This document shows positions 7,713 to 33,088 of a stretch of DNA of 64,000 nt, in pieces. A model generated the notes under the pieces. That model did not search any database, had not been told where the DNA came from, and saw only the letters and a list, made by a program, of their open reading frames with translations. Source of the stretch: a virus; IMG/VR virus record IMGVR_UViG_3300020477_001468, positions 1 to 64,000 of that record; one strand, written 5' to 3'. The translations under genes were made by a program, and so were the position numbers. Positions within the stretch are counted from its first letter, which is position 1; each line of letters starts with the position of its first letter.

Positions 7713-8456
7713 TCATAGCGGTTTGTAGTAATCTATTTGATGTGTTTCAATGACATCTTTCGATCTTAATAGCTGACCATGTAAATCTACATCATATACA
7801 GGAACACCTGTCTCGTTTACATAGTTTTGAAGCATAACTTCCTGACCTTTTAATTGACCTCTTTCATTAATATATTTTTTATATATGTCTGTGCAGTATT
7901 CAAACATAGAATAGTATATTTCCATACTTAATGGATCGCCCCACGCAAAAAAGTTGTTTAATTTAAATTCTTGATTATAACCTGGACATCTTGATTGATA
8001 AATTCCAGGACCATAGTATAATTCAGGTTTTTTTAGCAATAATACATCTGGTCTAATGTTTACTACTATATCATACTTTTCACTTGATTCATTATATAAG
8101 CAAAAAGACTTGTACATACTATACAAGGTGTCAATATAAATTTTTCTTTTTTCAGGCACATTAGATGGTAATTTAGCTGTATAACCATTACATTCAATTC
8201 CAGTATAATAATCTTTTATATCAAAAAAACTCTCAACAACGCACTGCTTTACTAATTCACCATATTGAGTAAGAACATCTTCTTTACTTATATTTTCTTT
8301 TGTGATGGGTAAATCTAAATGAGCATTTTTCCATGAGTCTGTAGAAGTTTTCCAAGTATGAAGATAAATATGTGCATCAGGTAATATGTGTTTAATAGAA
8401 TTGTTAGTATGGCGATATGTTCTCATTTCACCAGACATACAAAGAGCATACTTCAT
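7713..8456 (-). CDS. glycosyltransferase-like protein
   Basis: 247 aa. The start (MKYALCMSGEMRTY) and a central YDIVVNIRPDVLLL segment fit a group of poorly described glycosyltransferase-like proteins in capsule and phage gene clusters that begin with a SGxxRT motif and carry an RxD motif in the nucleotide-sugar site. No classical DxD is seen. AGAGG at 8467-8471 is a good ribosome binding site. It is the leftmost gene of the accessory island and points away from the kinase gene at 8502. Substrate unknown. Confidence 0.45.
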   Translation of the reverse strand: MKYALCMSGEMRTYRHTNNSIKHILPDAHIYLHTWKTSTDSWKNAHLDLPITKENISKEDVLTQYGELVKQCVVESFFDIKDYYTGIECNGYTAKLPSNVPEKRKIYIDTLYSMYKSFCLYNESSEKYDIVVNIRPDVLLLKKPELYYGPGIYQSRCPGYNQEFKLNNFFAWGDPLSMEIYYSMFEYCTDIYKKYINERGQLKGQEVMLQNYVNETGVPVYDVDLHGQLLRSKDVIETHQIDYYKPL

Positions 8457-8501
8457 AAATAAAACCTCTCATATATATATAAAGACTAAAATAATGATCT
8501 A
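8457..8501. promoter_or_regulatory. divergent intergenic spacer with candidate promoters
   Basis: This 45-base, very AT-rich gap separates the leftward glycosyltransferase-like gene from the rightward seven-gene sugar operon. It contains an alternating TA run (8471-8480) with TATATAAA at 8476-8483 and CTAAAATA just after. It must hold at least the rightward promoter, but no element matches the late consensus exactly. Confidence 0.35.
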
Positions 8502-9428
8502 GTGAGTAAATCTATGAAGCAAGTTATTTGTACTGGAACTGCTGTACTTGACCATATTTTTCAACTATCAAAAATACCCCAAACTCCAACAAAGAGTTTT
8601 GCTAAAGATTATACTATTACTAGTGGTGGTAATGCATCAACTGCAGCAATTGCTCTAAGTTGTGCTGGAGGTCGTTCTATTTTTTGGGGTGTCATTGGTG
8701 ATGATTATAATGGAGATTTAATTTTAAAAAATCTTACAAAGTTTAATGTAGATGTCCAAAATGTTCAACGATTACCAGGTGTTAACTCAGGAATATCTAC
8801 TGTTCTGATTGATGATAAAGGTGAACGTCTTGTTATTCATTATAGTGATCAAAAGCTCTTTTCTAATGCTGACTGGCTTCCACTTGAAAGACTTAAAGAA
8901 AGTGATGCTGTACTCGTTGATTGGCGTTGGCCTAAAGGAGCAATGAAAGTTCTAAGCAAAGCTCATGAATTAGGAATTCCTTCTGTCCTTGATGCAGATT
9001 TAAACCCACAAAGTCTTAATGAAGATGTAATAAGTCTCGCTACACATGTTCTTTTTTCTAAACCAGCATTAAAAGAATTTGGAGGTGAGAATATAGTAAC
9101 AGCACTTAAATGTGCTAAAGAACTAAACAAAGGTTGGGTAGGAGTCACAGATGGTTCAGGTGGAACATATTGGTTAGAAACACTTGGAAAGCATTGTGAT
9201 GCTCTACGTCATTTTCCAGCATTTAAAGTAAAGACCTTAAATACTCTTGGTGCAGGAGATGTTTTTCATGGAGTCTTTACGTTATGTTTAGCTGAAGGAA
9301 ACTCTGAAGAAAATGCAATCCGTATTGCTTCTGCTGCAGCAGCCATACATTGTTCAAAAGCTCCATATAGACATAAGTCTATTCCAAATAGAAATAGTAT
9401 TGATAAATTTATAAAAGAAAACGCATGA
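8502..9428 (+). CDS. PfkB-family carbohydrate kinase
   Basis: 308 aa from the GTG at 8502; an ATG at 8514 is an alternative start. It has the two PfkB signatures: an N-terminal substrate-binding SGGNASTAAIAL (41-52) and a C-terminal ATP/anion-hole NTLGAGDVFHG (247-257) with catalytic Asp253. Usual PfkB members have Asp where this has Asn247. Length is normal for the family (ribokinase, sulfofructose kinase and relatives). It heads a rightward operon with an epimerase and a nucleotidyltransferase, so it probably phosphorylates a sugar that is later activated. The specific sugar cannot be told. Confidence 0.85.
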   Translation: MSKSMKQVICTGTAVLDHIFQLSKIPQTPTKSFAKDYTITSGGNASTAAIALSCAGGRSIFWGVIGDDYNGDLILKNLTKFNVDVQNVQRLPGVNSGISTVLIDDKGERLVIHYSDQKLFSNADWLPLERLKESDAVLVDWRWPKGAMKVLSKAHELGIPSVLDADLNPQSLNEDVISLATHVLFSKPALKEFGGENIVTALKCAKELNKGWVGVTDGSGGTYWLETLGKHCDALRHFPAFKVKTLNTLGAGDVFHGVFTLCLAEGNSEENAIRIASAAAAIHCSKAPYRHKSIPNRNSIDKFIKENA

Positions 9429-10126
9429 AACAAAAAATATTACTCACAGGAATTAAAGGCTTTATTGGTCACCATTGCTACAACTATTTAAAAGATGAAT
9501 ATGATATTATAGGTATTGATAATTGCTCAGGACTTGCGCATGATGAAAGAGAAGTTCCATATACACATGAAAACTTACTCACTTGTAAGTTACCTGATGT
9601 TGATGTTGTATTACACTTAGCTGCAAAAGCAGGGGTAAAAGAAAGTTGGGTAAAATTAGAAGATTATTATAATAGCAATGTTGTAGTTACAAAACGTATT
9701 TTTGATCATTATACCAAAGCTAAAATAGTATATGCCTCTAGTTCATCTGTTATAGATTTAATGAGTCCATATGCTATGACAAAAGCAATGTGTGAGACAA
9801 TGGCTCCCTCAAATGCTATAGGCATGAGATTTTTTACTGTATATGGTCCTAGCAGTAGACCAGATATGTTATACAGAATGGCTATGGAAGATAAACTCAC
9901 ATACATAACACAACATCAACGAGACTTTACTCATATTAATACTTTATTACCTTTAATTAAAGCAGTCATTCAAAAAGGTAAAGAAGGACATGTTTATGAA
10001 ATGGGTGAAGGAAATCCAGAAACAGTAGAGCAGTTTTTAAAAAGAATTAATTATACAAAAGATGTTCCTTTCAAAGAAGTAACAGGCGAAAGTGAATATA
10101 CATGTTCTAAACCTTTTACAATATAA
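9425..10126 (+). CDS. NAD-dependent epimerase/dehydratase (extended SDR), short form
   Basis: 233 aa. The Rossmann motif TGIKGFIG (8-15), DVVLHLAAKAGV (60-71), SSSS (105-108) and the catalytic YAMTK (Tyr116, Lys120) mark an extended SDR of the UDP-sugar epimerase type, followed by a MRFFTVYGP segment and the QRDFTHI motif. At 233 residues it is about 80 shorter than normal, mostly through loss in the substrate-binding C-terminal half. It overlaps the kinase by 4 bases. It probably acts on a nucleotide sugar, if active. Confidence 0.85.
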   Translation: MKQKILLTGIKGFIGHHCYNYLKDEYDIIGIDNCSGLAHDEREVPYTHENLLTCKLPDVDVVLHLAAKAGVKESWVKLEDYYNSNVVVTKRIFDHYTKAKIVYASSSSVIDLMSPYAMTKAMCETMAPSNAIGMRFFTVYGPSSRPDMLYRMAMEDKLTYITQHQRDFTHINTLLPLIKAVIQKGKEGHVYEMGEGNPETVEQFLKRINYTKDVPFKEVTGESEYTCSKPFTI

Positions 10127-10130
10127 AATT

Positions 10131-10850
10131 ATGAATATAGTTATACCAATGGCAGGAAAAGGAACTGGTTTTAAAAATTGGAACCGAGATCATCGTTGTT
10201 CCGCTCTTCCTAAACCATTAATTGCAATAAATGGAAAATCAATGATCACACACTCTGTTGAAACATGTGGTCTTGATGGACAATACATTTTTATTATTAA
10301 TAAAGATCATAAACAATTTGGAGTTGAAGATCATCTGAAAAACATTGTACCAGATTGTAAACTCGTAGAAGCTATTGAACCACAATCAGGTCAAGCTACA
10401 GCTGTTTTATTTGCTGAAGAGTTTATTAACAATGATGAATACTTAGTTATACAAAATTGCGATCATAGAAAAGAATGGTCAAAAAATTATGATAAAGAGG
10501 CAGATGGTTGGTTAGGGACACAAGAACTGTCAGGTCCTGAATGGTCTTATGCAAGAATTAATAATGAAGGTTGGGTTATTGAAACAGCTGAAAAAAGAGA
10601 AATATCTAAAAATGCTACTATAGGTATGTTTGCTTGGAAACGTGGAAAAGATTATGTAAAATATTGTAAGCAAATGGTAAAAAGAAATATAAGAGTAAAA
10701 AATGAATTTTATGTGAACCCTGTATATAATCAAGCAATTGCTGATGGTTTAAAATTCAAATTAACTCCTATAGAAACATATTGGTCTTTTGGTTCACCCG
10801 CTAAAGTAGAAAAATATTTAGAATATGTTGCTGGCAATTTCGAACTATGA
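10131..10850 (+). CDS. nucleotidyltransferase (NTP_transferase family)
   Basis: 239 aa from the ATG at 10131. An in-frame ATG at 10092 lies inside the upstream gene and is less likely. The start MNIVIPMAGKGTGF and the LPKPLIAINGKSMI segment are those of sugar-phosphate nucleotidyltransferases. The usual Arg of the GxGxR signature is Gly here (GKGTGF), so either the chemistry differs or another basic residue takes its place. VIQNCDH is the position of the metal-binding Asp. Between epimerase and glycosyltransferase genes, its expected role is making an NDP-sugar from a sugar phosphate. Confidence 0.75.
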   Translation: MNIVIPMAGKGTGFKNWNRDHRCSALPKPLIAINGKSMITHSVETCGLDGQYIFIINKDHKQFGVEDHLKNIVPDCKLVEAIEPQSGQATAVLFAEEFINNDEYLVIQNCDHRKEWSKNYDKEADGWLGTQELSGPEWSYARINNEGWVIETAEKREISKNATIGMFAWKRGKDYVKYCKQMVKRNIRVKNEFYVNPVYNQAIADGLKFKLTPIETYWSFGSPAKVEKYLEYVAGNFEL

Positions 10851-11644
10851 GAGCAATTGTATCCATCTTCATAGATGCAAATCTATATGATGCTAAAGAA
10901 ACGGGCATAATAAACTTTCAACCTGATGCTACAAATCTATACAGAGAACTTAAACCAAAAATCATCAACAATCATGAAACATATGCAAAAAATGTAAATG
11001 CAGATTACTGTTTGTTTCAAGATTCAAAGATGTGGAGTCGGTATCTTCAAAAAATAAAAGATTTGTTTCCAAACATTGCAATGTACAATTATATTAATTA
11101 TTATAAATTTTATATTGCAGAATACATGACAAGATTTTATGATGAAGTATTATATGTTGATTTTGATGCATTTTTTAATACAACAGATAATTTTTTTGAA
11201 GAAAATGACCTATCAAAGTTTTGTGTACAAACCTGGGATATGCCGTACTTCTCTGAATCACCAAGAGATATTGATGTAAATATACCAAAATTAAGATTAA
11301 TGAAGGCTTGGTATTCGCAACAACTATTGGAAAGAGTCTATAATATGAATATTAGTGAATATAATTTGTTTACAGCAAATACAGGTGTGCATGCATATAA
11401 CAAAGATGTTATTAATCAACTAGATTTTTTTAATTGTTTTCAAGAAACTGTAGATACGATTTATGATTATAAAGATGATTGTGCAGAAGATAATGAAGTC
11501 TTTTTTGTAGCAGCAGCTATAAAAAATAATGTACCAATACATTCGTATAACCATAAATGGAATTTTAGCCCTAAACGAAAACCTTATGAAGGTAAAATTT
11601 GTCATTTCACTGTTAAAGAACATATGAAAGGATTCTTTGAGTAA
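10847..11644 (+). CDS. GT-A-fold glycosyltransferase, paralogue family A
   Basis: 265 aa. The segment YINYYKFYIAEYM, a short linker and then EVLYVDFDAFF gives a DxD metal-binding motif in the right place for a retaining GT-A enzyme. The same layout recurs in the genes at 17936, 28516 and 29574. Later NTGVHAY and EDNEVFF fit the acceptor and catalytic side of GT8-like enzymes. It overlaps the nucleotidyltransferase by 4 bases and the oxidoreductase by 8. Donor and acceptor unknown. Confidence 0.6.
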   Translation: MRAIVSIFIDANLYDAKETGIINFQPDATNLYRELKPKIINNHETYAKNVNADYCLFQDSKMWSRYLQKIKDLFPNIAMYNYINYYKFYIAEYMTRFYDEVLYVDFDAFFNTTDNFFEENDLSKFCVQTWDMPYFSESPRDIDVNIPKLRLMKAWYSQQLLERVYNMNISEYNLFTANTGVHAYNKDVINQLDFFNCFQETVDTIYDYKDDCAEDNEVFFVAAAIKNNVPIHSYNHKWNFSPKRKPYEGKICHFTVKEHMKGFFE

Positions 11645-12356
11645 CGCAATAGGCATTATAGGTTTTGGTAGTATAGGTAAAAAATATTACAATCTAATTG
11701 AGGATGGTAAAATTAAAGGTGCTGAAATAGGTGCAGTATGCCGTGATGATTTTATGCACTATAGTGATCTACTTGAATCCAACTATTGTGATATGATTAT
11801 TGTATCTACACCTCATGCATCACATTATGAAATAGGACTAGCGTCATTAGAACTTGGTTACCCAACTCTAATAGAAAAACCAATGTCTATGAATAAACAA
11901 GAATACCAAGAACTAATTGATGCTGGTGCTGTCACATCATTTAGTACAAGATATGCAGGTAAACTTAAAGCTAAAAACCACATATACTGGTCAGTAAATT
12001 GGTATAGAGATGAAGGTTATTATAAAGGTTGGAGAGGAGAATATGATCATATTATATGGAATCAAGCTATTCACAATTTAGATATATTACAATGGTCTTT
12101 TGGAAATCCAATAGTAACGTTTTCTGAGCAAGACAAATATAACATTTTGTGTAAGTTAACTTTTCCAAATGGAATTACATGTGAATATCATGCTAGCACA
12201 AATAAAAAGCAACTCCAATCTACTTTAATCATAGATGGTATAAAACAACCATCACCCACACGTACACCTGACCATAAACAACTTCTGCAAGATTTTGTAG
12301 ATAAGAAATTAAATTCTCCAACTATAGATATAGTTAATTTAATAGAGCAATTATGA
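11637..12356 (+). CDS. Gfo/Idh/MocA-family oxidoreductase, short form
   Basis: 239 aa from the TTG at 11637, whose 8-base overlap with the upstream stop (TTGAGTAA) suggests coupled translation. The Rossmann GFGSIG (9-14), the STPHASH segment (57-63), the EKP motif (80-82) and an IHNLD motif (145-149) carrying the catalytic-site His/Asp are clear. The protein is about 100 residues shorter than normal, and its C-terminal sheet is reduced. Expected activity is NAD(P)-dependent oxidation or reduction of a sugar or sugar nucleotide. Confidence 0.8.
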   Translation: MSNAIGIIGFGSIGKKYYNLIEDGKIKGAEIGAVCRDDFMHYSDLLESNYCDMIIVSTPHASHYEIGLASLELGYPTLIEKPMSMNKQEYQELIDAGAVTSFSTRYAGKLKAKNHIYWSVNWYRDEGYYKGWRGEYDHIIWNQAIHNLDILQWSFGNPIVTFSEQDKYNILCKLTFPNGITCEYHASTNKKQLQSTLIIDGIKQPSPTRTPDHKQLLQDFVDKKLNSPTIDIVNLIEQL

Positions 12357-13069
12357 GTAGCTTGTTTGTATTTGGTGATAGTTTTACTTATGGAATGAAA
12401 GAAAGTGAAACACATTATGAAGAAAAACATGAAGGGCAATTAAAAAATTGTTTTGTAAATTTGATAGGTAAACACTACAATTTAAATGTTGAAAATTATT
12501 CACAACCTGGAACTAGCAATCATATACAAACTGCAGAATTATTTAAAAATCTAATAACAAAGAAAATTAAATCTAATGATGTTGTGATATTTGGAATAAC
12601 ATCTCCTTCAAGAAATCCTGAGGTTCTTGATTATAGAGGAAAATATTATATTGATAGATACTTGTTTAGTTATTTTAACACACTAATGCAAATAAACAAC
12701 TATAGTCAATATTTTCATAAAAATGTTCTTGTACTTAAATTATTTGAAGATCCAGTTGTTCGTCATCATATTGCAGCTACACCTAAACAATATTCTCAAC
12801 AAGATATATTTGATTATATTAAAAATTTAAAACCAACATACTTCATACCTTTTACAACAGTTGATATCTTATTAGATAATTTAAAAGCACTTCCAAACCA
12901 CTTACACCATGAACGCTTAAAGATAGATTCCTCTCATGAAAAATATTTTCAACCTAAAGGACATCCATCAGAAGAAGGTCATATTAAAATTGCTGATTAT
13001 CTTATTAAATACATAGATAAGAATTTTAAAAATTTTATTCCATTAGTAGATCCATTTATATATGATTAA
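12353..13069 (+). CDS. SGNH/GDSL-type hydrolase
   Basis: 238 aa. Block I FVFGDSFTYG (nucleophile Ser in GDS), block III with SQPGTSN, and block V HPSEEGH with the catalytic Asp/His pair at the C-terminus are in order. Such enzymes remove or transfer acyl groups, for example from glycans. It overlaps the oxidoreductase by 4 bases and the radical SAM gene by exactly 8, the same junction seen in the second SGNH/radical SAM pair at 25307. Confidence 0.8.
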   Translation: MSSLFVFGDSFTYGMKESETHYEEKHEGQLKNCFVNLIGKHYNLNVENYSQPGTSNHIQTAELFKNLITKKIKSNDVVIFGITSPSRNPEVLDYRGKYYIDRYLFSYFNTLMQINNYSQYFHKNVLVLKLFEDPVVRHHIAATPKQYSQQDIFDYIKNLKPTYFIPFTTVDILLDNLKALPNHLHHERLKIDSSHEKYFQPKGHPSEEGHIKIADYLIKYIDKNFKNFIPLVDPFIYD

Positions 13070-13910
13070 TGTACCGATACATCGTATTGAACTCAATCCA
13101 ACTGAACTGTGTAATCGTTTATGCAGTTTCTGTCCTAGAGCTTATGACTATCCTAATCTCAATTTAAATATGACAGCTGATACAGCTGAAGAAATAGTTT
13201 TACAAACCAACCAATACACAAACTACATTTGCATTGCAGGACGAGGTGAGCCTTTACTGTGCCCAGAAATAAAAGAAATATGCCAAGTAATGGCATTATA
13301 TAATCGAAAGTTTTACCTTCAGACTAATGGAGATTTTTTAGATAAACATATTCAAGAATTAGATGCAATTATGAATTTAAAGAAACTCCCAAAAAATGGA
13401 CATTGCAAACTATTAGTAAATTGTTATGATGGTGTAGAACAAAAATTAGAAAGACAAGCAAAATGGCAACAATATGCTGCATTAAAAATAACTGCTGCAA
13501 GAGAAGATGATCCAACTTTAGAAGAATACAAATCAAGAATTGCTACAGGTAAGTATGTAAATCGTGGTGGATATTTACCTTGGACTTTTTCACCAGCTGT
13601 TCAAAGTCCTTGTTATATTTTATTTCACAAATGTTATATCAATTGGAATGGAGACATACAGATTTGTTGTCATGATTGGAAGGTAATGAAAAGTTTTGGT
13701 AATATTTTTGATAAACCATTTCAAGAAATATGGGAAGGTGAAGAGTTAATGAAATACAGACTAACTCTTCAACATGCAGGTGGAAGACAAAAATTTGAAG
13801 AATGTAAAAACTGTGATGCTATCCAACAATGGGAAGATACAAAACGATATTATGAATCTTGGGTAAAAAAGAATGTAACTCGAACTCAAGAATGTCCCTC
13901 TTTTGAATAA
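13062..13910 (+). CDS. radical SAM enzyme with C-terminal SPASM domain
   Basis: 282 aa. The CxxxCxxC cluster motif is CNRLCSFC (Cys17, 21, 24), and GRGEP (60-64) takes the place of the GGEP SAM-binding motif. The C-terminal region has Cys184, Cys191, the CC pair 202-203 and CKNC (248-251), a SPASM auxiliary cluster. Such enzymes modify peptides, sugars or other substrates by radical chemistry. It ends the rightward operon, and its last 25 bases overlap the end of the convergent oxygenase gene. Substrate unknown. Confidence 0.85.
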   Translation: MINVPIHRIELNPTELCNRLCSFCPRAYDYPNLNLNMTADTAEEIVLQTNQYTNYICIAGRGEPLLCPEIKEICQVMALYNRKFYLQTNGDFLDKHIQELDAIMNLKKLPKNGHCKLLVNCYDGVEQKLERQAKWQQYAALKITAAREDDPTLEEYKSRIATGKYVNRGGYLPWTFSPAVQSPCYILFHKCYINWNGDIQICCHDWKVMKSFGNIFDKPFQEIWEGEELMKYRLTLQHAGGRQKFEECKNCDAIQQWEDTKRYYESWVKKNVTRTQECPSFE

Positions 13911-14590
13911 CTTCTTATAACTGTTCTTACATAATCTGGTACTTGTTCACATGTTTCAGCAAATGTAAAAGGTTGATTCTTTTTAGACCACTCACTTGTT
14001 CTATTACATCTAATATCAAAACCATGATATATCATATGTACTCTACGCTCATTAGACTTATTTTCAATACGATGATAATTAGACAAGTTAAGTAAACGAG
14101 CCTCTCCAGGTTTCCATGGAACAACTTTGTTTCCTAATATAAAATCACACTCTTCTGGATGATTTAAACTAAAATTAACTGCATCCCCTAACATACAATC
14201 AGTAGAATCTTGGTGTGAGTAAATAATTCCTCCTGGCTCCAACAACATCCATCTTATGCGTTTGTGTCTTTTTACTGGCCAAATATTTTTAAAAAAATTA
14301 TATGTAACATTACATGCATTAGCCATTTTTGTCCAACCAAGTTCTCCATTATGTTCATGGTATTCTTTTGATTCTGTTGAAGTTGTAGCATAAGTACCTT
14401 GTCCATGCAATACTAAACTCTTCCATCCACCATTACTATAGTCTGATCTATGTACAACAAAATCATCAAGAAATGGTTCTATTTCCTCATACATTTCTTG
14501 ATATGGAAATTCAATATCTAATTTTAAATTTGTAAGACCACTTTTAAGTATAGATTCATATTTTTCTAATTCTTCTTTTGTAATCTTCAT
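13886..14590 (-). CDS. aspartyl/asparaginyl beta-hydroxylase-like 2OG-Fe(II) oxygenase
   Basis: 234 aa. WMLLEPGGIIYSHQDST gives an HxD iron site (His126, Asp128). LLNLSNYHRIENKSNERRVHMIYHG gives the distal His173 and the 2-oxoglutarate-binding Arg region (182-183). The layout fits the Asp/Asn beta-hydroxylase cupin family. It overlaps the upstream gene by 35 bases. It may hydroxylate a peptide or small molecule; the substrate is not visible. Confidence 0.65.
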   Translation of the reverse strand: MKITKEELEKYESILKSGLTNLKLDIEFPYQEMYEEIEPFLDDFVVHRSDYSNGGWKSLVLHGQGTYATTSTESKEYHEHNGELGWTKMANACNVTYNFFKNIWPVKRHKRIRWMLLEPGGIIYSHQDSTDCMLGDAVNFSLNHPEECDFILGNKVVPWKPGEARLLNLSNYHRIENKSNERRVHMIYHGFDIRCNRTSEWSKKNQPFTFAETCEQVPDYVRTVIRSYSKEGHS

Positions 14591-15956
14591 ACTCTTTGCG
14601 TCTCCAAGGAAAATTTAAATTCTCAACAGGCTGTATTGAATAGTCATCTAAAAAAGAAAACTTAATATCAGATTTTATAGGAGCAAATTCGTGCTCAGGA
14701 CAATTGCCTATAAAAACTGAACACTTGTTAGCAGCTATTTTTATTTTCTTTAAAATTATATCTGTTTCTAAAACTGAATAATTATGAGCAGTAATTGAAT
14801 AATTGCTTACATTTGAAAAATATAAAATACACTTCTTATCTTCAACCAAAGCAATCATTGCTGATGGGTCTAACATATTAACTAATTTATAATTGCATTC
14901 TATTTTTTTATTATTAATTAATTCAATTACATCAAGCAATTCAGGATTTTGATCGATAATACGAATAAAATAGTTATTCAAATATTCATGCGTCATTCTT
15001 ACTAGAGGAATTTTTATATCACCAACAACAGAATATTTTTGAAAATTTGCATAGTGTTCTTGTTCATCACAAAATTCTCCATATGAGGTTTCTTGTGGTG
15101 ACCAATTAGAAATGAGTTCTTTTGTAAAGCGTAAGGAGTTTTCATTGATATCACAGAATGTAATACTTTTTAATTTGGTATGTGTATATAACAGTGCTTG
15201 TAAACCATTAGCACAACCTACAAAATGTTCATAAGGCTCAATCTTAATTTCATCACGATCATATTGTGTTTCAGTAGACCATGCAAATACCCGTTGATTC
15301 TTTTTTTGAAAAATGTCTAATTTCTGAGGATGTACTCTATAATATCCTTTATGTTTTTTCCAGTCTATATACAAAAATCTTTTATCATCACGTACCGTTC
15401 GATTAAATGGTTCAATTTTTTTACCTGCTCTAAGTAGGTTAGATATTAAGTATGCTCCAGATGGTAATTCTTCACCATGTAAATCACAACCATATATGTA
15501 AATTTCTTTGCCACCATCCTTTATCCAAATAGGAGTATAATCATCATGAAAATTTTCTTCAGATCGTTCAACAGATCTCAACGTCTTAGTTCTAGTAACA
15601 TCATAATCTGCAACCTTCACAATAAAACATTGATCATGAACAGCCCAATATCTTGAACCTTTATCTAAAATATGTCCTACTAATGAAACTGTCTCATAAT
15701 CAAAATTATCTAATAAAACTCTAAAATTAAATCTTGTACCTATTTTAACGACAAGTGCAAATTCTGTAGTACAAGATGTTATATCTTCATCTCTTAAATA
15801 TTCAACGTACTTATAACTGCCGCCAAATGTATTAATTACATGATCCATAACATTTATGGCTAAATTGTACTCTTTTGAATAATTTTGTAGATTATAATTT
15901 TCTACTACTATAATTGTAAAGCGTTCGGCAGGTTGCTTTTTATATGGTGTGATCAT
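14556..15956 (-). CDS. two-part protein with methyltransferase-like C-terminal half
   Basis: 466 aa, family not recognised. Residues 1-200 have an alpha/beta pattern with FALVVKIGTRFNF (66-78) and VGHILDKGSRYWAVHDQCFIV, reminiscent of the nucleotide-sugar domains in phage and capsule clusters. Residues 242-280 carry a glycine-containing FVGCANGLQALLY loop followed by SITFCDINENSL, which resembles motif I and II of class I SAM-dependent methyltransferases. It is followed by a strand-rich end. It is probably a fusion. Activity not established. Confidence 0.45.
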   Translation of the reverse strand: MITPYKKQPAERFTIIVVENYNLQNYSKEYNLAINVMDHVINTFGGSYKYVEYLRDEDITSCTTEFALVVKIGTRFNFRVLLDNFDYETVSLVGHILDKGSRYWAVHDQCFIVKVADYDVTRTKTLRSVERSEENFHDDYTPIWIKDGGKEIYIYGCDLHGEELPSGAYLISNLLRAGKKIEPFNRTVRDDKRFLYIDWKKHKGYYRVHPQKLDIFQKKNQRVFAWSTETQYDRDEIKIEPYEHFVGCANGLQALLYTHTKLKSITFCDINENSLRFTKELISNWSPQETSYGEFCDEQEHYANFQKYSVVGDIKIPLVRMTHEYLNNYFIRIIDQNPELLDVIELINNKKIECNYKLVNMLDPSAMIALVEDKKCILYFSNVSNYSITAHNYSVLETDIILKKIKIAANKCSVFIGNCPEHEFAPIKSDIKFSFLDDYSIQPVENLNFPWRRKEYEDYKRRIRKI

Positions 15957-15959
15957 AAT

Positions 15960-26059: not shown

Positions 26060-26406
26060 AAAAAATAATATGTCAATGGGAAAAGGTTGATAAAGTTTTA
26101 ATCAATCCTGATGGACAAGTATTTCCATGTTGTTATCTATCAAATCCAGCTTACACTGCTAAAATTCAAGAAGCAAAAGACGGCAAGGTTTCATATGGAT
26201 GGGATGTTGTGAATGATCCAACACCAACTGCAGAAACTAATGTAATTAGAAAATATTATGAACATGAAAAAGATTTAAATGTTTTTAACAAATCTTTAAG
26301 TGATGTCCTTGCTCATAAATGGTTTCAAGAAATATTACCAAAATCATGGGAAGATGAAAAAACTTGCCATAAAATTTGTAAAATGATGTGTGAACGTGAA
26401 GTCTAA
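26056..26406 (+). CDS. free-standing SPASM-domain protein
   Basis: 116 aa. It has Cys6, the LINPDGQVFPCCYLSN segment with Cys25-Cys26, and terminal cysteines at 104, 108 and 112 (CHKICKMMC), the auxiliary-cluster ligands of a SPASM domain without a radical SAM barrel. It overlaps the radical SAM gene upstream by 4 bases, so the two probably form a two-chain enzyme. Alternatively one frame was broken by an indel in the A6 run at 26033-26038. Confidence 0.65.
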   Translation: MKKIICQWEKVDKVLINPDGQVFPCCYLSNPAYTAKIQEAKDGKVSYGWDVVNDPTPTAETNVIRKYYEHEKDLNVFNKSLSDVLAHKWFQEILPKSWEDEKTCHKICKMMCEREV

Positions 26407-27562
26407 ATTTTGTCCTGCACCATGGTATCATTTATCAACTGATACTAATGGATCATTAAGACCCTGCTGTAAATTCTCTCAACCACAACTTCAGCAAAAG
26501 CATAAAATGCCTTTTATGTATGAAGGTAGATTAGATGAATTGTGGAACAGCAAAAATTTTAAATCATTACGTCAAGATTTTATAGATGGAAAGCAACCAA
26601 AAGAATGTGAAATATGCTGGAATGAAGAAAACAACAATGTAAGAAGTTATCGTGAAAATTTAATTGATTGGTTTAAGAGTAGTTGGGAGCATTGTGATTT
26701 TACAAAGGTAGAAGCACCTCCTCCTACGTCTTTTGATTTCAAGGTCACAAACTTGTGTAATATGAAATGCAGAATTTGTGGACCAACAGCATCAAGTTTA
26801 TTTTTTGAAGAAGCCAAATCTTATATGAGATTAACCTATAATGAGGCCTATTTAAAAGACAACAAAATAACACAAACTAATAATAGAGAAATATTTTTAA
26901 AATGGTTACCACATATAAAACGTATTGAAATTACAGGTGGTGAACCTCTAGTTAGTCCTGAAAATAAAGAAATGATAAAGTTAATATGTGATCAAGGTCA
27001 CGCAGATCATATTGACTTACAAGTTACTACAAATGGTAAACTTTTTATTCCAAAATTTAATGAATATTTAAAACAGTTTGAAAGAGTAATCATATCGTTA
27101 AGTATTGATGATATCACTGATAGATTTGAATACCATAGATATCCATCTAATTGGAAAAAAGTTAAATCAAATATAGACGATTATATAAAATTAGATAAAG
27201 ACAATCATAATATACAAACATATCTTTATTGTACAGTAAGTAATTATAATATCTTTTACTTAGATGAATATTGTGATTATTTTAGCTATCTACCAAAAAA
27301 TCAATATAATTTTGGTTTATTATTTTATAATGATTACTGGTGCATTCAAAATCTACATCCATATATTAAAGAAATTATATTAGACAAATTAAACGACTAT
27401 GAAAAATTACATCCTGTAATTAATTACTTATCAGGTAAAGGCAAAGACCTTACTAAAAAATTTTTGATAGAAACTTCAAAGTTTGATAGACTTAGACAGC
27501 AACAATTTTCAACAACATTTCCAGAATGGTATGATATTCTCAGCATGCATCGCACCCTTTAA
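26390..27562 (+). CDS. radical SAM enzyme with N-terminal SPASM/twitch-like region
   Basis: 390 aa from the GTG at 26390; a second GTG at 26396 is possible. N-terminal cluster cysteines are FCPAPW (Cys8), RPCCKF (26-27) and CEIC (73-76). The core has LCNMKCRIC (Cys123, 127, 130) and ITGGEPL (181-187). Same order as the genes at 23291 and 27531. It overlaps the SPASM protein gene by 17 bases. Substrate unknown. Confidence 0.85.
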   Translation: MNVKSKFCPAPWYHLSTDTNGSLRPCCKFSQPQLQQKHKMPFMYEGRLDELWNSKNFKSLRQDFIDGKQPKECEICWNEENNNVRSYRENLIDWFKSSWEHCDFTKVEAPPPTSFDFKVTNLCNMKCRICGPTASSLFFEEAKSYMRLTYNEAYLKDNKITQTNNREIFLKWLPHIKRIEITGGEPLVSPENKEMIKLICDQGHADHIDLQVTTNGKLFIPKFNEYLKQFERVIISLSIDDITDRFEYHRYPSNWKKVKSNIDDYIKLDKDNHNIQTYLYCTVSNYNIFYLDEYCDYFSYLPKNQYNFGLLFYNDYWCIQNLHPYIKEIILDKLNDYEKLHPVINYLSGKGKDLTKKFLIETSKFDRLRQQQFSTTFPEWYDILSMHRTL

Positions 27563-28535
27563 TAATATGTATTTTGCAGTACAAGGTCAAGCATCACCTT
27601 GTTGGCTGTCTAGTGGATATTTGGATAAGTGGTCTAAAACCAAATCAATCAAAGAAATCTGGCGAGGTCAAAAATATCAACAATATAGAAACAATTTAAG
27701 ATGGGATATATTTGAAGATCAATGTACAATATGTAAGGATGATATTGATAATGGAAGATGGCCTTTAGCTAAAGCATATGAAGATTTTAGTGTTGATTTT
27801 GAATATCCTACATTGATGGAATTGGAATTAAGCAACCAATGTAATCTTGAATGTTTAATGTGTTCTGGAATATTAAGTAGTGGTATTAGAAAAAATAGAG
27901 ATAAATTACCACCACTAGAAATACCTTATGATGATAGTTTTGTAGAACAGCTTAATGAATTTATCCCTTATCTTGAAGAATTAAGATTTAATGGTGGTGA
28001 ACCAATGCTACAAAACATTGTTCATAAAATTTGTAACAATGTCGCAAAAATAAAACCAGAACTTAAAATTAATATTGCAACAAATGGTACCGTTTACAAT
28101 AAGAGAGTTCAAACCTTATTAAATAAATGCAATATACATCTTAATATTTCTATAGATGGGTTCTCTAAAGACGTATATGAAAAAATAAGAATAAATGCAA
28201 ATCATGACACCTTAATGAAACATTTTGATATTTTTTTGCGATACTGTAAAGATGGTAAGAGAGAATTATCTGTTATGGTAAACCCAATGAGAAACAATTG
28301 GTGGGAAATGCATAAGTTTGTTGAATGGACACATAAACACAATGTCAATTTATGGTATAACACAATTAGGTATCCTGAACATTTAGCATTATGGAATTGG
28401 GAGGATAAGTTACATAGTGTGTATGATAGTATGAGTTTATGTTTAAGGCAAATGCCAAATTTTCAAAATAAAGATAAGTATGAACATTTAGTGGAAAGGC
28501 AAATAAAGACTTGGTATGAAAAGATGTCTCTATAG
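27531..28535 (+). CDS. radical SAM enzyme with N-terminal SPASM/twitch-like region
   Basis: 334 aa from the ATG at 27531. An in-frame TTG at 27483 would overlap the upstream gene by 80 bases and add residues without family similarity. N-terminal cysteines: CIAPF (Cys6), SPCW (24) and CTIC (65-68). Core: QCNLECLMC (Cys104, 108, 111) and FNGGEPM (153-159). Third member of the 23291/26390 subfamily and immediately downstream of the second, so a tandem duplication is likely. Confidence 0.85.
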   Translation: MIFSACIAPFNNMYFAVQGQASPCWLSSGYLDKWSKTKSIKEIWRGQKYQQYRNNLRWDIFEDQCTICKDDIDNGRWPLAKAYEDFSVDFEYPTLMELELSNQCNLECLMCSGILSSGIRKNRDKLPPLEIPYDDSFVEQLNEFIPYLEELRFNGGEPMLQNIVHKICNNVAKIKPELKINIATNGTVYNKRVQTLLNKCNIHLNISIDGFSKDVYEKIRINANHDTLMKHFDIFLRYCKDGKRELSVMVNPMRNNWWEMHKFVEWTHKHNVNLWYNTIRYPEHLALWNWEDKLHSVYDSMSLCLRQMPNFQNKDKYEHLVERQIKTWYEKMSL

Positions 28536-29586
28536 TAATTTTATAGCGATTACTAATTATAGAAATAAAAATGCATTTATAATTTATTATGATGATATAA
28601 AAGAAGCACATCAAAAATATGCTGACGCTATAAACGTTGATTATGTTTTATTTGAAGGAACAACAAACAACTATAATCTACCTCTTTACGAACAAATAAA
28701 CCTCGCAAAATATATTAATGGCGAAGCCCTATTACAAGAATATGATGAAATCTTTTATATTGATTTTGATATAATACCAAACACTTCAATAAACTGTTTT
28801 AGAAGATGGGATTTACAAAGCCATATTCCAATTAAAGCTACTATAGACTTTGATTGTTATTCTAGTGCTCAGCAATATATTGATCACATTAATCAAGTTA
28901 AATTTAATACTGAATTAGAAGAATACAATACTATTTCAAGACAATTTAATGAAGAACAAGATAAAATCTTAAAAAGGTACGATAAGTTAACACAACAATA
29001 TTGGAGAGGTATTACTGATGATAGTTATCATGGTAGACCATGGAGTGAAGAAACAAGACCTAAACAATTTGAAGAAGAATTAGGTTTAGATTGGTGGTAC
29101 AAAAAACATGATTTTGATATCAATCTAGTTAACAGACCAATGAAAACATTCAAAGAAAATTTTATTGAAATAGATACACCCTCTCCTGATACAATTCAAC
29201 CTTGGGATGATATTGTTAAGTATGCTGCCGCAGATATTTTAACTAATACACCAATCCTATATAATACCGGCGTTATGGGATTTAGTAGAAATACCTTTAA
29301 AGATTTGAATATAATTAACCGTATAGAAGAATTCAAAAATAAAATAAAAAGATTTATTAAATCAGAAAAATGGCCAGAATTTATTACTAAGCATATTGAC
29401 TTTAATAATGAAGTGTTATTTTCGTACTGTGCAGATAAGGTTAATATTAAACATATTCCTGATTCATGGAACTACTTCGTTGATTGGGATTCTGGTGTTA
29501 TTGAAGTAGAACAATCCTCTTCATTCGAAGACTGTAAATTCAGACATTATTTAAATAAGAATTTTGAAAAACAATGGCCAACGTAA
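28516..29586 (+). CDS. GT-A-fold glycosyltransferase, paralogue family A, long form
   Basis: 356 aa. YEQINLAKYINGEAL and EIFYIDFDIIP carry the DxD in the family A layout. An insertion of about 90 residues follows, then LYNTGVMGF and a terminal FRHYLNKNFE with the conserved His. It overlaps the radical SAM gene upstream by 20 bases and the next paralogue by 13. Confidence 0.6.
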   Translation: MKRCLYSNFIAITNYRNKNAFIIYYDDIKEAHQKYADAINVDYVLFEGTTNNYNLPLYEQINLAKYINGEALLQEYDEIFYIDFDIIPNTSINCFRRWDLQSHIPIKATIDFDCYSSAQQYIDHINQVKFNTELEEYNTISRQFNEEQDKILKRYDKLTQQYWRGITDDSYHGRPWSEETRPKQFEEELGLDWWYKKHDFDINLVNRPMKTFKENFIEIDTPSPDTIQPWDDIVKYAAADILTNTPILYNTGVMGFSRNTFKDLNIINRIEEFKNKIKRFIKSEKWPEFITKHIDFNNEVLFSYCADKVNIKHIPDSWNYFVDWDSGVIEVEQSSSFEDCKFRHYLNKNFEKQWPT

Positions 29587-30440
29587 TCTATAGTATATAC
29601 ATTGAAATTGAAAAAGAAAATTATGATCAAAATATTGGATCATATTATTATGATGAAAAAACAGGTATATCAAAAAGTCGTCGTTCTCATTATGAATATG
29701 AAAAATATAAAAAAGAATTAGCTTTATGTAAAGAGATTTATAGTGATGTTATAGGGTGCGACTTTATTCTTTTTGGTAATGATAAGGATTATAAAAACTT
29801 TTCAAAGAAAATGTTATCTGACTGTCCTCATCTATCAAAGTATGAGATAATTAATTTCTATAAATTTGATAGAGCTGTTCATTGTGCGAAAACATATGAT
29901 AATGTATTGTTTTTAGATTTTGATGTAATACCAAATAACTTTCATAATTGGTTTGACTATTTTGATCCTTCAAAATTTCATGTACAAGATTCTCCTATTA
30001 GAGTTAGTTTACCAAAAGATGTATTATCAGGTCGTTGGCAATTAGATGCTAGAGCACCAGAAGCAAAAATGTATAATGCTGGTAAATTGTTAGAAATGTA
30101 TAACCTTGATACAGATGATAATAAACCTTGGAATACTGCTATTATGGGGTTTACTTCTGAAATGATGGATAAGTTAGATTACTTTAAAGATTTTACTCTA
30201 ACTATGGAAGCAATGCACTTATTAAAACAACAAAACCTTCCAAAACCATATAAAAGATTATTAGGATATGATAATGAAACTCTTTTTGGATTTAGAATAA
30301 TTCAACACAAAATACCATATCAAATATTACCTGTTAAATGGCATTATCTGGTTGATGATTTATCAATTAAAAAGGTACATGATAATATTTGTTTTTGCCA
30401 TTGTATAGATAAACAATTTGGGAGATTTTTTGGATATTGA
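29574..30440 (+). CDS. GT-A-fold glycosyltransferase, paralogue family A
   Basis: 288 aa. YEIINFYKFDRAV and NVLFLDFDVIP (DxD) match the other family A members, most closely the adjacent gene at 28516 (both read DFD-x-IPN), so the pair is probably a tandem duplication. NTAIMGF is the later conserved motif, and the end CFCHCIDKQFGR gives a terminal His. Sugar and acceptor unknown. Confidence 0.6.
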   Translation: MANVIYSIYIEIEKENYDQNIGSYYYDEKTGISKSRRSHYEYEKYKKELALCKEIYSDVIGCDFILFGNDKDYKNFSKKMLSDCPHLSKYEIINFYKFDRAVHCAKTYDNVLFLDFDVIPNNFHNWFDYFDPSKFHVQDSPIRVSLPKDVLSGRWQLDARAPEAKMYNAGKLLEMYNLDTDDNKPWNTAIMGFTSEMMDKLDYFKDFTLTMEAMHLLKQQNLPKPYKRLLGYDNETLFGFRIIQHKIPYQILPVKWHYLVDDLSIKKVHDNICFCHCIDKQFGRFFGY

Positions 30441-31080
30441 TAATTGTTGGTTAAATTCTGGATACAAGGATATAATATGGTCAATCACTTATAGAGTAGT
30501 AAATAATTTTGCAAGTCATTTAAAAGTACATCCTGTTACCTTTGGTTTGGTTAGATCAAAAGATAAAGAAACATTAATTGAAAGATTTGAAACTATAATA
30601 AAACAATATGATATACAATTTACTTATGAATTTTGTAAAGATACTAATCCTCAAGAATATAGAAAACAAGAAATAGAATATTTCAATACTGAACCATACA
30701 TACCTTTTAAAGAACCATATATTGGAGGAGAATATTTTACATTAAACTTACCTGACAATTTCCAAACTAAGATATTATCTCAACAAAAGCTAAAAGATAA
30801 ACGTATAATCTTAAATACAAATAATGTTTATAAAAAGATTATTGAGTTGACTAACAACAATATTAAGATATTATCATATACTGATAAAGCTATAGATGTA
30901 ATACACACCCTCAAACATACAAAACACCATTTTACCTATTGTGGAGCAACTGCTTGGATTGCTGAACATATGAAAGTACCACAAACAATTATTAGTCAAG
31001 ATCCTGAATATCTAAAAGACAATGAATTAAAATTTGGAAATAACATTCATATTAGTGAAGAAAATTTTTTATATGGTTAA
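30418..31080 (+). CDS. GT-B/GT9-like protein, N-terminally short
   Basis: 220 aa from a TTG at 30418; a TTG at 30430 would also work, and no in-frame ATG lies nearby. The C-terminal HTLKHTKHHFTYCGATAWIAEH segment, followed by KVPQTII, resembles the donor-site turn and helix of heptosyltransferase-like proteins and the corresponding part of the gene at 22302. The N-terminal half is not recognised. It lies between two GT-A genes, overlapping both by 8-23 bases. Confidence 0.4.
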   Translation: MGDFLDIDNCWLNSGYKDIIWSITYRVVNNFASHLKVHPVTFGLVRSKDKETLIERFETIIKQYDIQFTYEFCKDTNPQEYRKQEIEYFNTEPYIPFKEPYIGGEYFTLNLPDNFQTKILSQQKLKDKRIILNTNNVYKKIIELTNNNIKILSYTDKAIDVIHTLKHTKHHFTYCGATAWIAEHMKVPQTIISQDPEYLKDNELKFGNNIHISEENFLYG

Positions 31081-31747
31081 CATATGTTGTTTGTTATTTA
31101 AAAATGATTGGACAAATCCAAAATACCAAAATTTAGATTCTGTTTATGATTTTTCTTGGGTGGAAAAACTGTATGCGATGTGTGAAAGAAATATCACATA
31201 TGAATTTACATTTTATTGCTTAACAAATATACATTTTAAACATGATAGTATTATCAATATACCAATTTTAAACAATAAACCATCAACGTATGATAAACTT
31301 CAGCTATTTCAAAAAAATGCCATAAAAGATCATCCAACTGTTTATTTTGATTTAGATGTAGTTATTACAAATAATATTGATCAACTTTTTGATATACAAG
31401 AATTAACTATGGTAAGTAAATTTTGTAGGAATCCATTTGCTAAAGAGACTGCACCTAATAATGGATCAATAATTGGTTGGATACCAAACAAATATTATTG
31501 GATATATGATATATGGAAAAATGCTACCAACTTACCTATAACTGAGGATCAATTATTGACTCCTCTTTCTACAACCTATTCACAAGAAATAATCTCAAGC
31601 TATACAGGAAATGAAGTTGATCTGTTGTGGTGGGATAAACCATATACTTTTAACAAAAAGCATATTGTTATATGTTTTAACAAACATAGTAAAAAACAAG
31701 ATTATTATCAGAATGAAAGTTTATGGATTAAAGATTATTGGTATTGA
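31073..31747 (+). CDS. glycosyltransferase-like protein
   Basis: 224 aa from the ATG at 31073, which overlaps the upstream stop by 8 bases (ATGGTTAA); upstream in-frame codons lie inside the previous gene. PTVYFDLDVVIT holds a DxD motif, and NGSIIGW and HIVICFNKH take the later positions seen in GT-A family proteins. It is the last rightward gene of the island, and its final 13 bases overlap the convergent oxygenase-like gene. Confidence 0.55.
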   Translation: MVNICCLLFKNDWTNPKYQNLDSVYDFSWVEKLYAMCERNITYEFTFYCLTNIHFKHDSIINIPILNNKPSTYDKLQLFQKNAIKDHPTVYFDLDVVITNNIDQLFDIQELTMVSKFCRNPFAKETAPNNGSIIGWIPNKYYWIYDIWKNATNLPITEDQLLTPLSTTYSQEIISSYTGNEVDLLWWDKPYTFNKKHIVICFNKHSKKQDYYQNESLWIKDYWY

Positions 31748-32346
31748 AATTCTTCTAAAGTAGTTTTAGACATCTCATTATCTAAAATTCTAAAAGCAAG
31801 AGAATATCTTTTACAATTAGTAGCCATTGCATGCCAACAATAAGGATATTTTTCAATAGATGCATGAGAATGAAAAACTGTTGATTTAACAGACCAACCT
31901 GGTACATCATTTAATTCAGTTGTTTTATCTTCAAGTTCATTATGAAGTTTAAAAACACCATCTCCTGTTTCTGACCAACAAAATAACATATTTCTTCCCG
32001 GAACATCAGCATTATGATGCCAGCTTACATACCCTCCCTCATCATACCATGTATTAAGAGCAATTGAAACTGCTCCAAGATAACTTGCAAGTTCATATAC
32101 GTATGGTGAAATAATTAAATAATCTCCATGATTGTATGGAGGAGACAAGTTATGAGAATATTGAAAATATGGCCAACAGCTGTGTTCGATTACTTTGTAC
32201 TGTTTAGCATGTTCAAGTAAATTACTCGAAACAGCTTGTTGATTATACAACTGTTCATGAATATACCTACTCTTCCCTACAAAATGAGGAAAGTTAACTT
32301 CAATCTTATTTAATATTGTTTGTACTGTAGCAGGAATCTTCATCAT
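31735..32346 (-). CDS. 2OG-Fe(II) oxygenase-like protein of the marine-phage type
   Basis: 203 aa. The segment VSWHHNADVPGRNMLFCWSE with GDGVFKLHN, then CWHAMATNCKRYSLAFRI, matches a protein group common in T4-like marine phages and often labelled 2OG-Fe(II) oxygenase. The first His/Asp spacing is HxxD (or HH) rather than a clean HxD, so the iron site is uncertain. The distal His and the Arg/Lys are present. The target may be DNA, protein or small molecule. Confidence 0.5.
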   Translation of the reverse strand: MMKIPATVQTILNKIEVNFPHFVGKSRYIHEQLYNQQAVSSNLLEHAKQYKVIEHSCWPYFQYSHNLSPPYNHGDYLIISPYVYELASYLGAVSIALNTWYDEGGYVSWHHNADVPGRNMLFCWSETGDGVFKLHNELEDKTTELNDVPGWSVKSTVFHSHASIEKYPYCWHAMATNCKRYSLAFRILDNEMSKTTLEEFQYQ

Positions 32347-33088
32347 GATAAAATTCTCTATGAAATTGATGTATTCTATTGAATAAAGGAGTTTTCACCT
32401 CCCGCAAAATAATATCCTCTTCTTTTACTCTCTCAACAATTCTATCATACACGTGTATAAAGTTATAGATGCAATCTTTGCCTTTAATATAATCCCATTT
32501 AATATCTGGTCTATACCATGGGTCATCTTTATCATTGACACCTAACATTAAACCTAAAGGAAATTGATCCCATTCTTGTATGTCCAGTGGATGGTATAAA
32601 GGCTTCCATCTTTCGGTCATCTTATTCTGTCGGAACCACAACCAATTATCCCACCATTCCCGCATAAAAGACAACGTTTTTTTATTGTTCCTATAAAGAA
32701 AAAATCCTCCATGAGGATGAGATTGAGTTACACCCTTCCACCAAATTTTAGCTGCTGCATATGGTCTAATTTTTGTGAAAACAATATCATTATCTTCAAT
32801 AAGAGAAAAGATAGTTTTTATTGCAGCTGATTGACAAAGCATATCAGCATCAATATAACAAGTTATCTCATAAGGTGTTTGAGGTAAAGCCCATAATTTA
32901 GCACGTTTGGAAGGAGGAGCACCACTTACTACATTATCAAAAACATGATTACCAGCATCATTTTTCCATTCATCAATAGTAAAAAGAGTTATCGGTATAT
33001 TAGAATATTCTTTTATACTATCTGCTAACATTTGGGCAGATGTTAGATAAGGCTTATAAACGCTGGCAACTAATAAGATGCCGTTCAT
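32306..33088 (-). CDS. nucleotide-diphospho-sugar transferase-like protein
   Basis: 260 aa from the ATG at 33088, which overlaps the upstream stop as ATGA. An ATG at 33184 would add 32 residues overlapping the Lys-rich tail of the upstream gene and is unlikely. The start ILLVASVYKPYLTSAQMLADSI, a KLWALPQTPY segment, CYIDADMLC (DxD) and HPHGGFFLY fit GT-A enzymes. The end overlaps the oxygenase gene by 41 bases. Confidence 0.6.
   Translation of the reverse strand: MNGILLVASVYKPYLTSAQMLADSIKEYSNIPITLFTIDEWKNDAGNHVFDNVVSGAPPSKRAKLWALPQTPYEITCYIDADMLCQSAAIKTIFSLIEDNDIVFTKIRPYAAAKIWWKGVTQSHPHGGFFLYRNNKKTLSFMREWWDNWLWFRQNKMTERWKPLYHPLDIQEWDQFPLGLMLGVNDKDDPWYRPDIKWDYIKGKDCIYNFIHVYDRIVERVKEEDIILREVKTPLFNRIHQFHREFYHDEDSCYSTNNIK

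Follow-up and report, generated by a model that had tools for sequence, protein, structure and literature searches.

Between the neck and the fibre genes of a marine T4-like phage lies an island of sugar, glycosyl-transfer, acyl, radical SAM (rSAM) and oxygenation genes (positions 7713–33088). We tentatively read it, at somewhat under even confidence, as a late-expressed factory that would place a glycan with chemical decorations on a fibre protein of the virion. The DNA analysed, here called the window, comprises positions 1 to 64,000 of IMG/VR record IMGVR_UViG_3300020477_001468. The island is almost certainly a variant of the ‘host recognition cluster’ (HRC) of pelagimyophages, the variable site between VrlC and gp13/14 described in PMC7029224, and the site type is thus already known. 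A sequence-only reading had delimited this island between neck and fibre-side genes and proposed that it could build a modified glycan; ORF calling with Pfam and NCBIfam bears out the gene set, phrog and HTVC008M matches bear out both borders, and the sugar-activation, glycosyltransferase (GT), rSAM and SGNH families support the proposed capacity.

Architecture of the island

Positions 7713–33184 are tiled by 32 ORFs of at least 81 amino acids and one of 32 amino acids, with no gap above 80 nt; the frames stay intact over 200–470 codons at 25–35% G+C and are therefore not due to chance. Families were assigned with Pfam and NCBIfam, phrog profiles and HMMs built in this analysis. The island (7713–33088) holds at least seven GT-like proteins, six rSAM enzymes and two SGNH proteins, along with sugar-activation enzymes and one Asp/Arg-hydroxylase-type oxygenase. 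Five of the rSAM ORFs (13062, 23291, 25286, 26390 and 27483) score above the Pfam cut-off and 19294 is rSAM-like; the GT ORFs are almost devoid of Pfam or NCBIfam matches.

The right border is formed by gp13, the head–tail adaptor Ad2 (6682–7677, −; phrog_211, E 1.6e-42; ATAAATA at 7711), followed by the first ORF inside the island, an unassigned protein (7713–8456, −; phrog_13607). The operon 8502–13910 (+) encodes a PfkB sugar kinase (8502–9428; Pfam, closest solved relative sulfofructose kinase), an NAD-dependent sugar epimerase/dehydratase (9425–10126; PF01370, 1e-22), a sugar-1-phosphate nucleotidyltransferase (10092–10850; PF00483, 2.8e-6), a family A8 GT (10847–11644; HMM, GT-A fold, DxD), a Gfo/Idh/MocA oxidoreductase (11637–12356; PF01408, 1.2e-11), an SGNH/GDSL protein (12353–13069; weak Pfam match, HMM 2.3e-10) and an rSAM enzyme with a fused C-terminal SPASM domain (13062–13910; PF04055, PF13186). 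On the opposite strand (−) are an Asp/Arg beta-hydroxylase family protein (13886–14590; PF05118, 3e-14), a 466-residue protein that is methyltransferase-like by eye only (14556–15956) and a 148-residue protein (15960–16406), both without family match, a Usg-like protein (16406–16651; PF06233, 8e-19) and a predicted lipoprotein with a lipobox and a LamG/ConA-like domain (16651–17871; PF13385, 1.7e-13). This lipoprotein, for which a search in other phages found no counterpart, suggests something at the cell envelope.

Next come an A8 GT (17936–18772, +; HMM), a small protein that is kinase-like by eye only, with no significant family (18751–19293, +), an rSAM-like enzyme whose single ORF spans the core and a SPASM-like region (19294–20142, +; 39.6% identity to Mosig L021:26435–26995, where the homologue is split into two ORFs), an A5 GT (20109–20786, −; HMM 5.5e-28) and an A5b GT (20785–21468, +; HMM 1.9e-39). 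The operon 21491–31747 (+) opens with an unassigned ORF (21491–22297) and a protein that is GT-B-like by eye only, with no family match (22302–23210). A 32-residue microprotein, MKLKYRLRYYWYKFKHLFIKRKKKDPPIYIYD (23200–23298), fills a former gap and is followed by a twitch rSAM (23291–24475; NF033640, 2.4e-55), an SGNH protein of a phage family retaining the catalytic Ser and His (24472–25314; HMM 3.2e-53), a split rSAM core lacking an auxiliary-cluster domain (25286–26059; Pfam, Cys motif), its partner, a stand-alone SPASM-like domain (26056–26406; PF13186, 1.5e-5; invariant Cys), and two further twitch rSAMs (26390–27562; NF033640, 1.1e-88; and 27483–28535; profile matches), the latter often joining the rSAM cassette as its third gene. 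The operon ends with two A8 GTs (28516–29586, HMM; 29574–30440), an unassigned c36 family protein (30418–31080; HMM 6.6e-13, hhalign 97%) and an A5 GT (31034–31747; HMM 3e-15). Both 20785 and 31034 match phrog_1962 ‘glycosyltransferase’ (1.3e-12 for the latter).

The remaining two island ORFs (−), without family match, are oxygenase-like by eye only (31735–32346) and GT-like, DxD-type by eye with an A5-like alignment (32306–33088). At the left border are homologues of c9 (33085–33663, −; HMM 8.3e-9) and of VIR, a virion protein candidate and the proposed acceptor (33678–34883, −; hhalign 83%, E 9.5e-6, a weak match), then a virion-like ORF (34885–36843) and VrlC (37047–43025, −; phrog_358, E 0; match to HTVC008M VrlC). 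Island G+C is 0.293 versus 0.335. The first two codon positions account for this drop; GC3 shows no decrease (0.174 versus 0.143), and low G+C was therefore rejected as a mark of recent transfer.

The A8 group (10847, 17936, 28516 and 29574) is GT-A-like, as judged from an AlphaFold2 model of 29574 (pLDDT 75, pTM 0.79) and Foldseek (E 2e-5), and its DxD motif is invariant. LgtC and blood-group (GT6) enzymes score similarly (TM 0.4–0.6), so that family GT8 is not singled out. Some T4-like phages glycosylate their DNA, and the GTs and oxygenases might hypermodify DNA here too, but T4 DNA glucosyltransferases have the GT-B fold; the linkage to virion genes and the late-type promoters described below likewise make this reading very improbable. 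Restriction-modification is also almost absent from SAR11 according to PMC7029224, although the host of this phage may differ.

The site in relatives and the VIR–c9–GT block

The genome is T4-like (Tevenvirinae-type), with VrlC identified by phrog_358 and by its HTVC008M match and with gp14, gp15 and baseplate genes; its island is non-syntenic between VrlC and the neck genes, and GTs lie beside fibre genes. HTVC008M and Melnitz are without the island and Mosig carries another at this site. In the relative L212, c9 directly adjoins gp13, so that 7713–33088 corresponds to a naturally empty site. Order and strand of island genes are shuffled among relatives, in keeping with the cassette exchange that the sequence-only reading had proposed looking for. 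That reading was to fall if relatives lacked the island with no effect and the genes were decaying; some relatives do lack it, but purifying selection on the module families in relatives (median dN/dS 0.08–0.29) argues against pseudogene decay.

The window shares with pelagimyophage HRCs, including the Mosig island, the T4-like genome, the site, GTs, sugar genes, rSAM cassettes and exchange among relatives; the Mosig island carries VIR, c9, A5, A5b, A8, c3, a carbamoyltransferase, an SGNH protein and a split rSAM/SPASM pair. The window’s gene set is nonetheless distinct: no close relative was found, and viral contigs scanned with one protein at a time (26390, 13062 and 10092) gave no matches. 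A SAR11 host is possible; the signs bearing on it are just the low G+C and a relatedness to pelagiphages and methylophages.

VIR-anchored loci were taken from the best 80 of 406 matches to one alignment; 39 were non-redundant with more than 4 kb downstream. GTs occur at 38 of these 39 and c3 at 36, in varying gene order and strand, in a sample that, being drawn from the best 80 of 406 matches, oversamples relatives of the query alignment. Seven records retain a set of VIR, c9, GT and c3 irrespective of the position of the rSAM pair; VIR was accordingly discarded as a marker of phages with that pair in the HRC. In one record (G303), where VIR carries a long additional region by fusion, the block is found ~40 kb away from VrlC, and the VIR–GT linkage is therefore not only a border effect. 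L212 has VIR and c9 but lacks a GT in the interval from c9 to gp13, which shows that VIR can occur without GTs at the HRC site, although the genome behind this short contig could have GTs elsewhere. A scan of 50,697 phage records places VIR and the A8 GT in the same single phage, Mosig. The VIR fold prediction has low confidence and a structure search gave no match; position and context suggest a virion protein. Tyr-Thr-Gly repeats in 33678–34883 were dropped as a common modification site, being absent from the other island phages examined. HMM and hhalign searches did not find c3 in the window, nor was a link between c3 and 14556–15956 found; c3 matches methyltransferases only weakly and was not accepted as an established one.

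ATAAATA stands 12–70 nt upstream of seven starts (0.39 expected, P 4e-8), including 8502 (47 nt), 21491 (26 nt) and 17871 (48 nt), and thus heads both operons. In relatives it precedes VIR or c9 in 0/35 cases, GT starts in 1/62 and the next fibre-assembly gene in 10/10, a pattern that fits co-transcription of VIR, c9 and GT genes with virion genes. Sigma-70-type promoters and intrinsic terminators showed no excess over shuffles. By these late-type motifs the island looks late-expressed. Late expression is also compatible with a surface change late in infection.

The main rival, possible although less probable, is that the enzymes alter a glycan of the host surface, be it LPS core, O-chain or exopolysaccharide, and so prevent superinfection or the re-adsorption of progeny. 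The A8 GTs have the same fold as the LPS GT LgtC; Bacteroidota homologues of the twitch rSAM adjoin GT-like, AsnB-like and epimerase genes; and the island includes the LamG lipoprotein and sugar-nucleotide genes. This reading sits less well with a GT block that stays linked to VIR and c9 even away from the HRC, with an island that has no predicted membrane flippase, polymerase or ligase, and with a late-type promoter motif, exclusion functions being usually early. Host-surface change is also the published proposal for pelagimyophage HRCs (PMC7029224). Of the three attachment sites that had been suggested, the virion is thus favoured by the virion-protein linkage and late-promoter motifs, DNA is disfavoured by the GT-A fold and late-looking expression, and the cell surface stays a possible site.

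Radical SAM pair and SGNH-linked microprotein

Of 54 lineages, 46 encode the rSAM core and the SPASM domain in two ORFs and four in a fused one, and we therefore describe the pair as a two-ORF variant instead of one polypeptide. The CX3CX2C motif (C28, C32 and C35) is invariant in 25286 and relatives, as are auxiliary-cluster residues C25, C26, C108 and C112 of the separate SPASM-like ORF, with C6 nearly so. Among carbohydrate-acting rSAM enzymes, BlsE is a profile match of the core, and the C-terminal twitch of BtrN matches the N-terminal twitch of 27483; here, by contrast, the domains come in permuted order or one is encoded by its own ORF. Bacteroidota were considered as a source of the split core, which was seen in 0/297 of their genomes (E 1e-20) in a search run without a positive control. 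Campylobacter phages CP220 and CPt10 have a comparable exchangeable cluster of five rSAM genes and an amidinotransferase (PMC2853527), in which the CP220 record annotates two nucleotide-diphospho-sugar-transferase-like proteins; host and genes differ, and the role proposed for that cluster was to support the metabolism of the infected host when oxygen is low, rather than to make glycans (PMC2853527).

The microprotein family (28 distinct peptides) is 30–40 residues long, with a C-terminal [FY][IV]Y[ED], an acidic tail and an invariant Tyr near the C terminus. A leave-one-out profile search gave E 0.0052, and dN/dS is below 1 in a few close pairs of relatives. Being shorter than usual ORF cut-offs, it escapes annotation. 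The sequence-only reading had also allowed a peptide-linked product, which stays possible, but the short peptide conserved here goes with SGNH genes and not with those for rSAM enzymes: 20 of the 28 peptides are within 150 nt of an SGNH gene, and it stands beside 22/44 SGNH genes versus 7/116 rSAM-core and 1/174 GT genes. Given these proportions, a mycofactocin-like role, in which rSAM/SPASM enzymes would modify the peptide as a RiPP precursor before its glycosylation, is improbable, even though in the window and several relatives a conserved peptide with an invariant C-terminal-region Tyr stands immediately upstream of rSAM genes; most rSAM modules are without it, and the island shows no recognisable RiPP peptidase or transporter.

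The pairing of an SGNH protein with a small neighbour instead recalls MBOAT–SGNH acyl transfer (DltX–DltD, PatA–PatB; PMC12148441), and the C-terminal aromatic-X-Tyr resembles the acyl-shuttle motif FXYXXF (PMC12148441). The likeness is partial: the microprotein lacks the final F of that motif and a clear membrane anchor, 0/5 records matched DltX family PF12459 at E up to 10, and neither MBOAT (PF03062) nor AT3 (PF01757) was found in the records searched, which may be fragments and whose host could supply one.

A loose set of independent auxiliary genes, sharing an insertion site and no single product, would accommodate SGNH–microprotein units apart from rSAM genes and rSAM pairs at gp46/47/55-type and gp32-region sites; GTs accompany the pair at 17/19 HRC loci versus 0/12 gp46/47/55 loci. 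It is unlikely given the near-constant VIR–c9–GT block, the rSAM core–SPASM and SGNH–microprotein pairs that travel as units, and the translational overlaps and shared operons.

A possible route to a glycosylated virion

In the favoured virion-glycan reading, the island would be built of exchangeable cassettes. The kinase, epimerase, nucleotidyltransferase and dehydrogenase would activate sugars, from which the A8, A5 and A5b GTs, of GT-A type as modelled for one family, would assemble a short glycan. The two-ORF and twitch rSAM enzymes may decorate its sugars by C–H chemistry and the SGNH proteins may acylate them, fed by the Tyr-bearing microprotein as acyl shuttle; in relatives, the carbamoyltransferase and the methyltransferase-like c3 could add further decoration. 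VIR with its partner c9, to judge by linkage, would be the acceptor or display platform, so that progeny would carry the glycan. The fullest version, a self-contained cytoplasmic pathway placing an rSAM-altered, carbamoylated and acylated glycan on a dedicated virion fibre protein, with a two-subunit rSAM/SPASM enzyme and a Tyr-microprotein shuttle serving SGNH transferases without a membrane acyltransferase, is a doubtful extension.

Mycobacteriophages offer a parallel in phage-encoded glycosylation of virion proteins (Freeman 2023, as cited in PMC12619734), likened by description and not by sequence: virion acceptors are reported there and proposed here, and what sets this island and its relatives apart from that description is their rSAM, SGNH and carbamoyl chemistry. 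The available text of PMC7029224 proposes host-surface change and does not describe the VIR–GT block, split rSAM or microprotein. We found no published description of the VIR–c9–GT block, the split rSAM/SPASM enzyme, the SGNH-linked microprotein or late-promoter motifs before island operons, and no paper on an rSAM–SGNH–carbamoyl phage cluster.

The HRC, the largest variable island of widespread ocean pelagimyophages and their relatives, has so far been read mainly as changing the host surface. A near-constant block of virion protein and GTs shifts the question to purified particles of the cultured phage Mosig, and for enzymology the split rSAM/SPASM pair and the SGNH-linked microprotein offer small, new targets.

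The island and its site

The full virus record is 75,021 bases long, and the window is its first 64 kb. The island (7713–33088) lies between gp13, gp14 and gp15 (4788–7677, minus strand) and the VrlC protein gene (37047–43025, minus strand), and is filled by about 32 called ORFs, mostly overlapping, with the majority on the plus strand. Family searches confirmed sugar-activation, radical SAM (rSAM)/SPASM, GDSL/SGNH and Asp/Arg hydroxylase genes, and most of the island glycosyltransferases (GTs) give no Pfam match. Pseudogene decay, raised in the sequence-only reading, is not what the conserved families display: these are under purifying selection (median dN/dS 0.08–0.29), so the decay check is answered for them, and not for every gene of the window.

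The site is the host recognition cluster (HRC) of pelagimyophages, an already known kind of locus, published as always lying between VrlC and gp14 and holding GTs and rSAM cassettes (PMC7029224). At the same site phage HTVC008M carries fibre genes and a few oxygenases, Melnitz mainly fibre genes, and Mosig a related but different island. A comparable cluster of rSAM genes, likewise open to exchange, was published in 2010 for the Campylobacter phages CP220 and CPt10 (PMC2853527). Within the CP220 cluster (NC_027997.1 70690–79273, locus L225) are two neighbouring nucleotide-diphospho-sugar-transferase-like genes, and it may thus also be a glycan cluster.

Several further genes deserve mention. 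The nearest solved structure to the PfkB kinase (8502–9428) is sulfofructose kinase (2e-57). A predicted lipoprotein with a LamG/ConA-like domain (16651–17871), preceded by a late-promoter motif, has zero matches among 50,697 phage records. Next to it is a Usg-like protein (16406–16651; PF06233), of an alphaproteobacterial family and a possible clue to the host. Outside the island, 2490–3599 matches periplasmic solute-binding proteins (SBP_bac_3), has a signal-like N-terminus and has a homologue, 50% identical, in phage record L007.

Glycosyltransferases beside a candidate virion protein

Modelled with its relatives (pLDDT 75, pTM 0.79), the group of four GTs starting at 10847, 17936, 28516 and 29574 has a predicted GT-A fold, matching the PBCV-1 capsid GT, LgtC and blood-group GTs (Foldseek, E down to 2e-5, TM 0.4–0.6).

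In relatives the gene order is VrlC, family vir227, the candidate virion protein VIR, family c9, GT A5, the methyltransferase-like c3, GT A8 and GT A5b, followed by rSAM genes, fibre assembly, fibres and gp13. A search seeded with VIR alone matched 406 contigs; among the best 80, which were kept, 39 non-redundant loci have more than 4 kb downstream, with GTs in 38 and c3 in 36. Gene order and strand are shuffled among these 39, and VIR–c9–A5–c3–A8 is kept in phages whose rSAM pair sits elsewhere. Linkage of VIR to the GTs survives relocation, since in one record (G303) the block lies at 10–20 kb, remote from VrlC at 62–68 kb. A single empty site, in L212, reads VIR–c9–gp13. In Mosig the VIR homologue is Mosig_00097.

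In the window, a c9 homologue (33085–33663; HMM, E 8e-9) is followed by a probable VIR homologue (33678–34883; hhalign 83%); a search of the window for c3 found none. The C-terminus of 33678–34883 carries Tyr-Thr/Ser-Gly tetrapeptide repeats, absent from the other island phages examined.

The radical SAM cassette and an SGNH-linked microprotein

An rSAM core without an auxiliary cluster (25286–26059) is followed by a separate SPASM-like domain (26056–26406). The core alignment matched 155 viral contigs in a profile scan; the SPASM ORF is directly 3′ of the core in 46 of 54 non-redundant loci, with varying overlap, the others being fused into one ORF (4), at contig ends (2) or different (2). 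Cysteines are conserved in both ORFs across relatives, and the twitch rSAM gene (27483) often comes next. Cassettes occupy HRC (19), gp46/47/55-type (12) and gp32-region (16) sites, and GTs are found with it at 17 of the 19 HRC loci, whereas the 12 gp46/47/55 loci have none (P 6e-7), so the GT set and the cassette can be separated. The twitch enzyme has relatives in Bacteroidota, at about 50% identity, whose genes form cassettes of three with neighbours judged by eye to be GT-like, AsnB-like and epimerase genes. A second split core and stand-alone SPASM-like pair lies outside the island (69919–70819 of the full record; L019:9920–10820, minus strand). By eye, an IscA/HesB-like iron-sulphur carrier gene is just upstream of the cassette at gp46/47/55-type sites (loci L024:574–882 and L053:1158–1466).

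Occupying the 80-nt gap at 23211–23290 is a 32-residue ORF (23200–23298). Scanning recovered 28 different members of this family, about 30–45 residues long apart from one of 53 whose start is further upstream; their N-terminal part is basic and aromatic, and they bear [FY][IV]Y[ED] at the C-terminus. For twenty of them an SGNH gene is no more than 150 nt away, and the microprotein adjoins 22/44 SGNH genes versus 7/116 rSAM cores and 1/174 GTs. dN/dS is below 1 in those close pairs whose dS is finite, which are few. With the window copy left out of the model, that copy scores E 0.0052, and is thus supported, not beyond doubt. Its C-terminal motif resembles the acyl shuttle motif FXYXXF of DltX (PMC12148441), and by this analogy it may be acyl-shuttle-like. 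It is not a DltX: the records searched gave no match to DltX, MBOAT or AT3.

Late-promoter motifs and the destination of the product

ATAAATA, which we take to be a late promoter by the T4 late promoter TATAAATA, has 14 copies in the window, 7 of them 12–70 nt ahead of a same-strand start (0.39 expected). Of these, three stand before the island units 8502, 21491 and 17871, and the other four before gp13 and further genes that are not part of the island. These motifs suggest late expression of the island. Among relatives, the fibre-assembly gene has the motif ahead of it in 10/10 cases and gp13 in 4/6, as against 0/35 for VIR and c9 and 1/62 for the three GT families, a pattern that fits transcription of these GTs by read-through from virion genes.

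There is good support for the island product being a glycan. The main rival to virion decoration is that it changes the host surface instead; the linkage of the GTs to VIR, together with the promoter motifs, suggests virion decoration, in which the glycan would be built on VIR.
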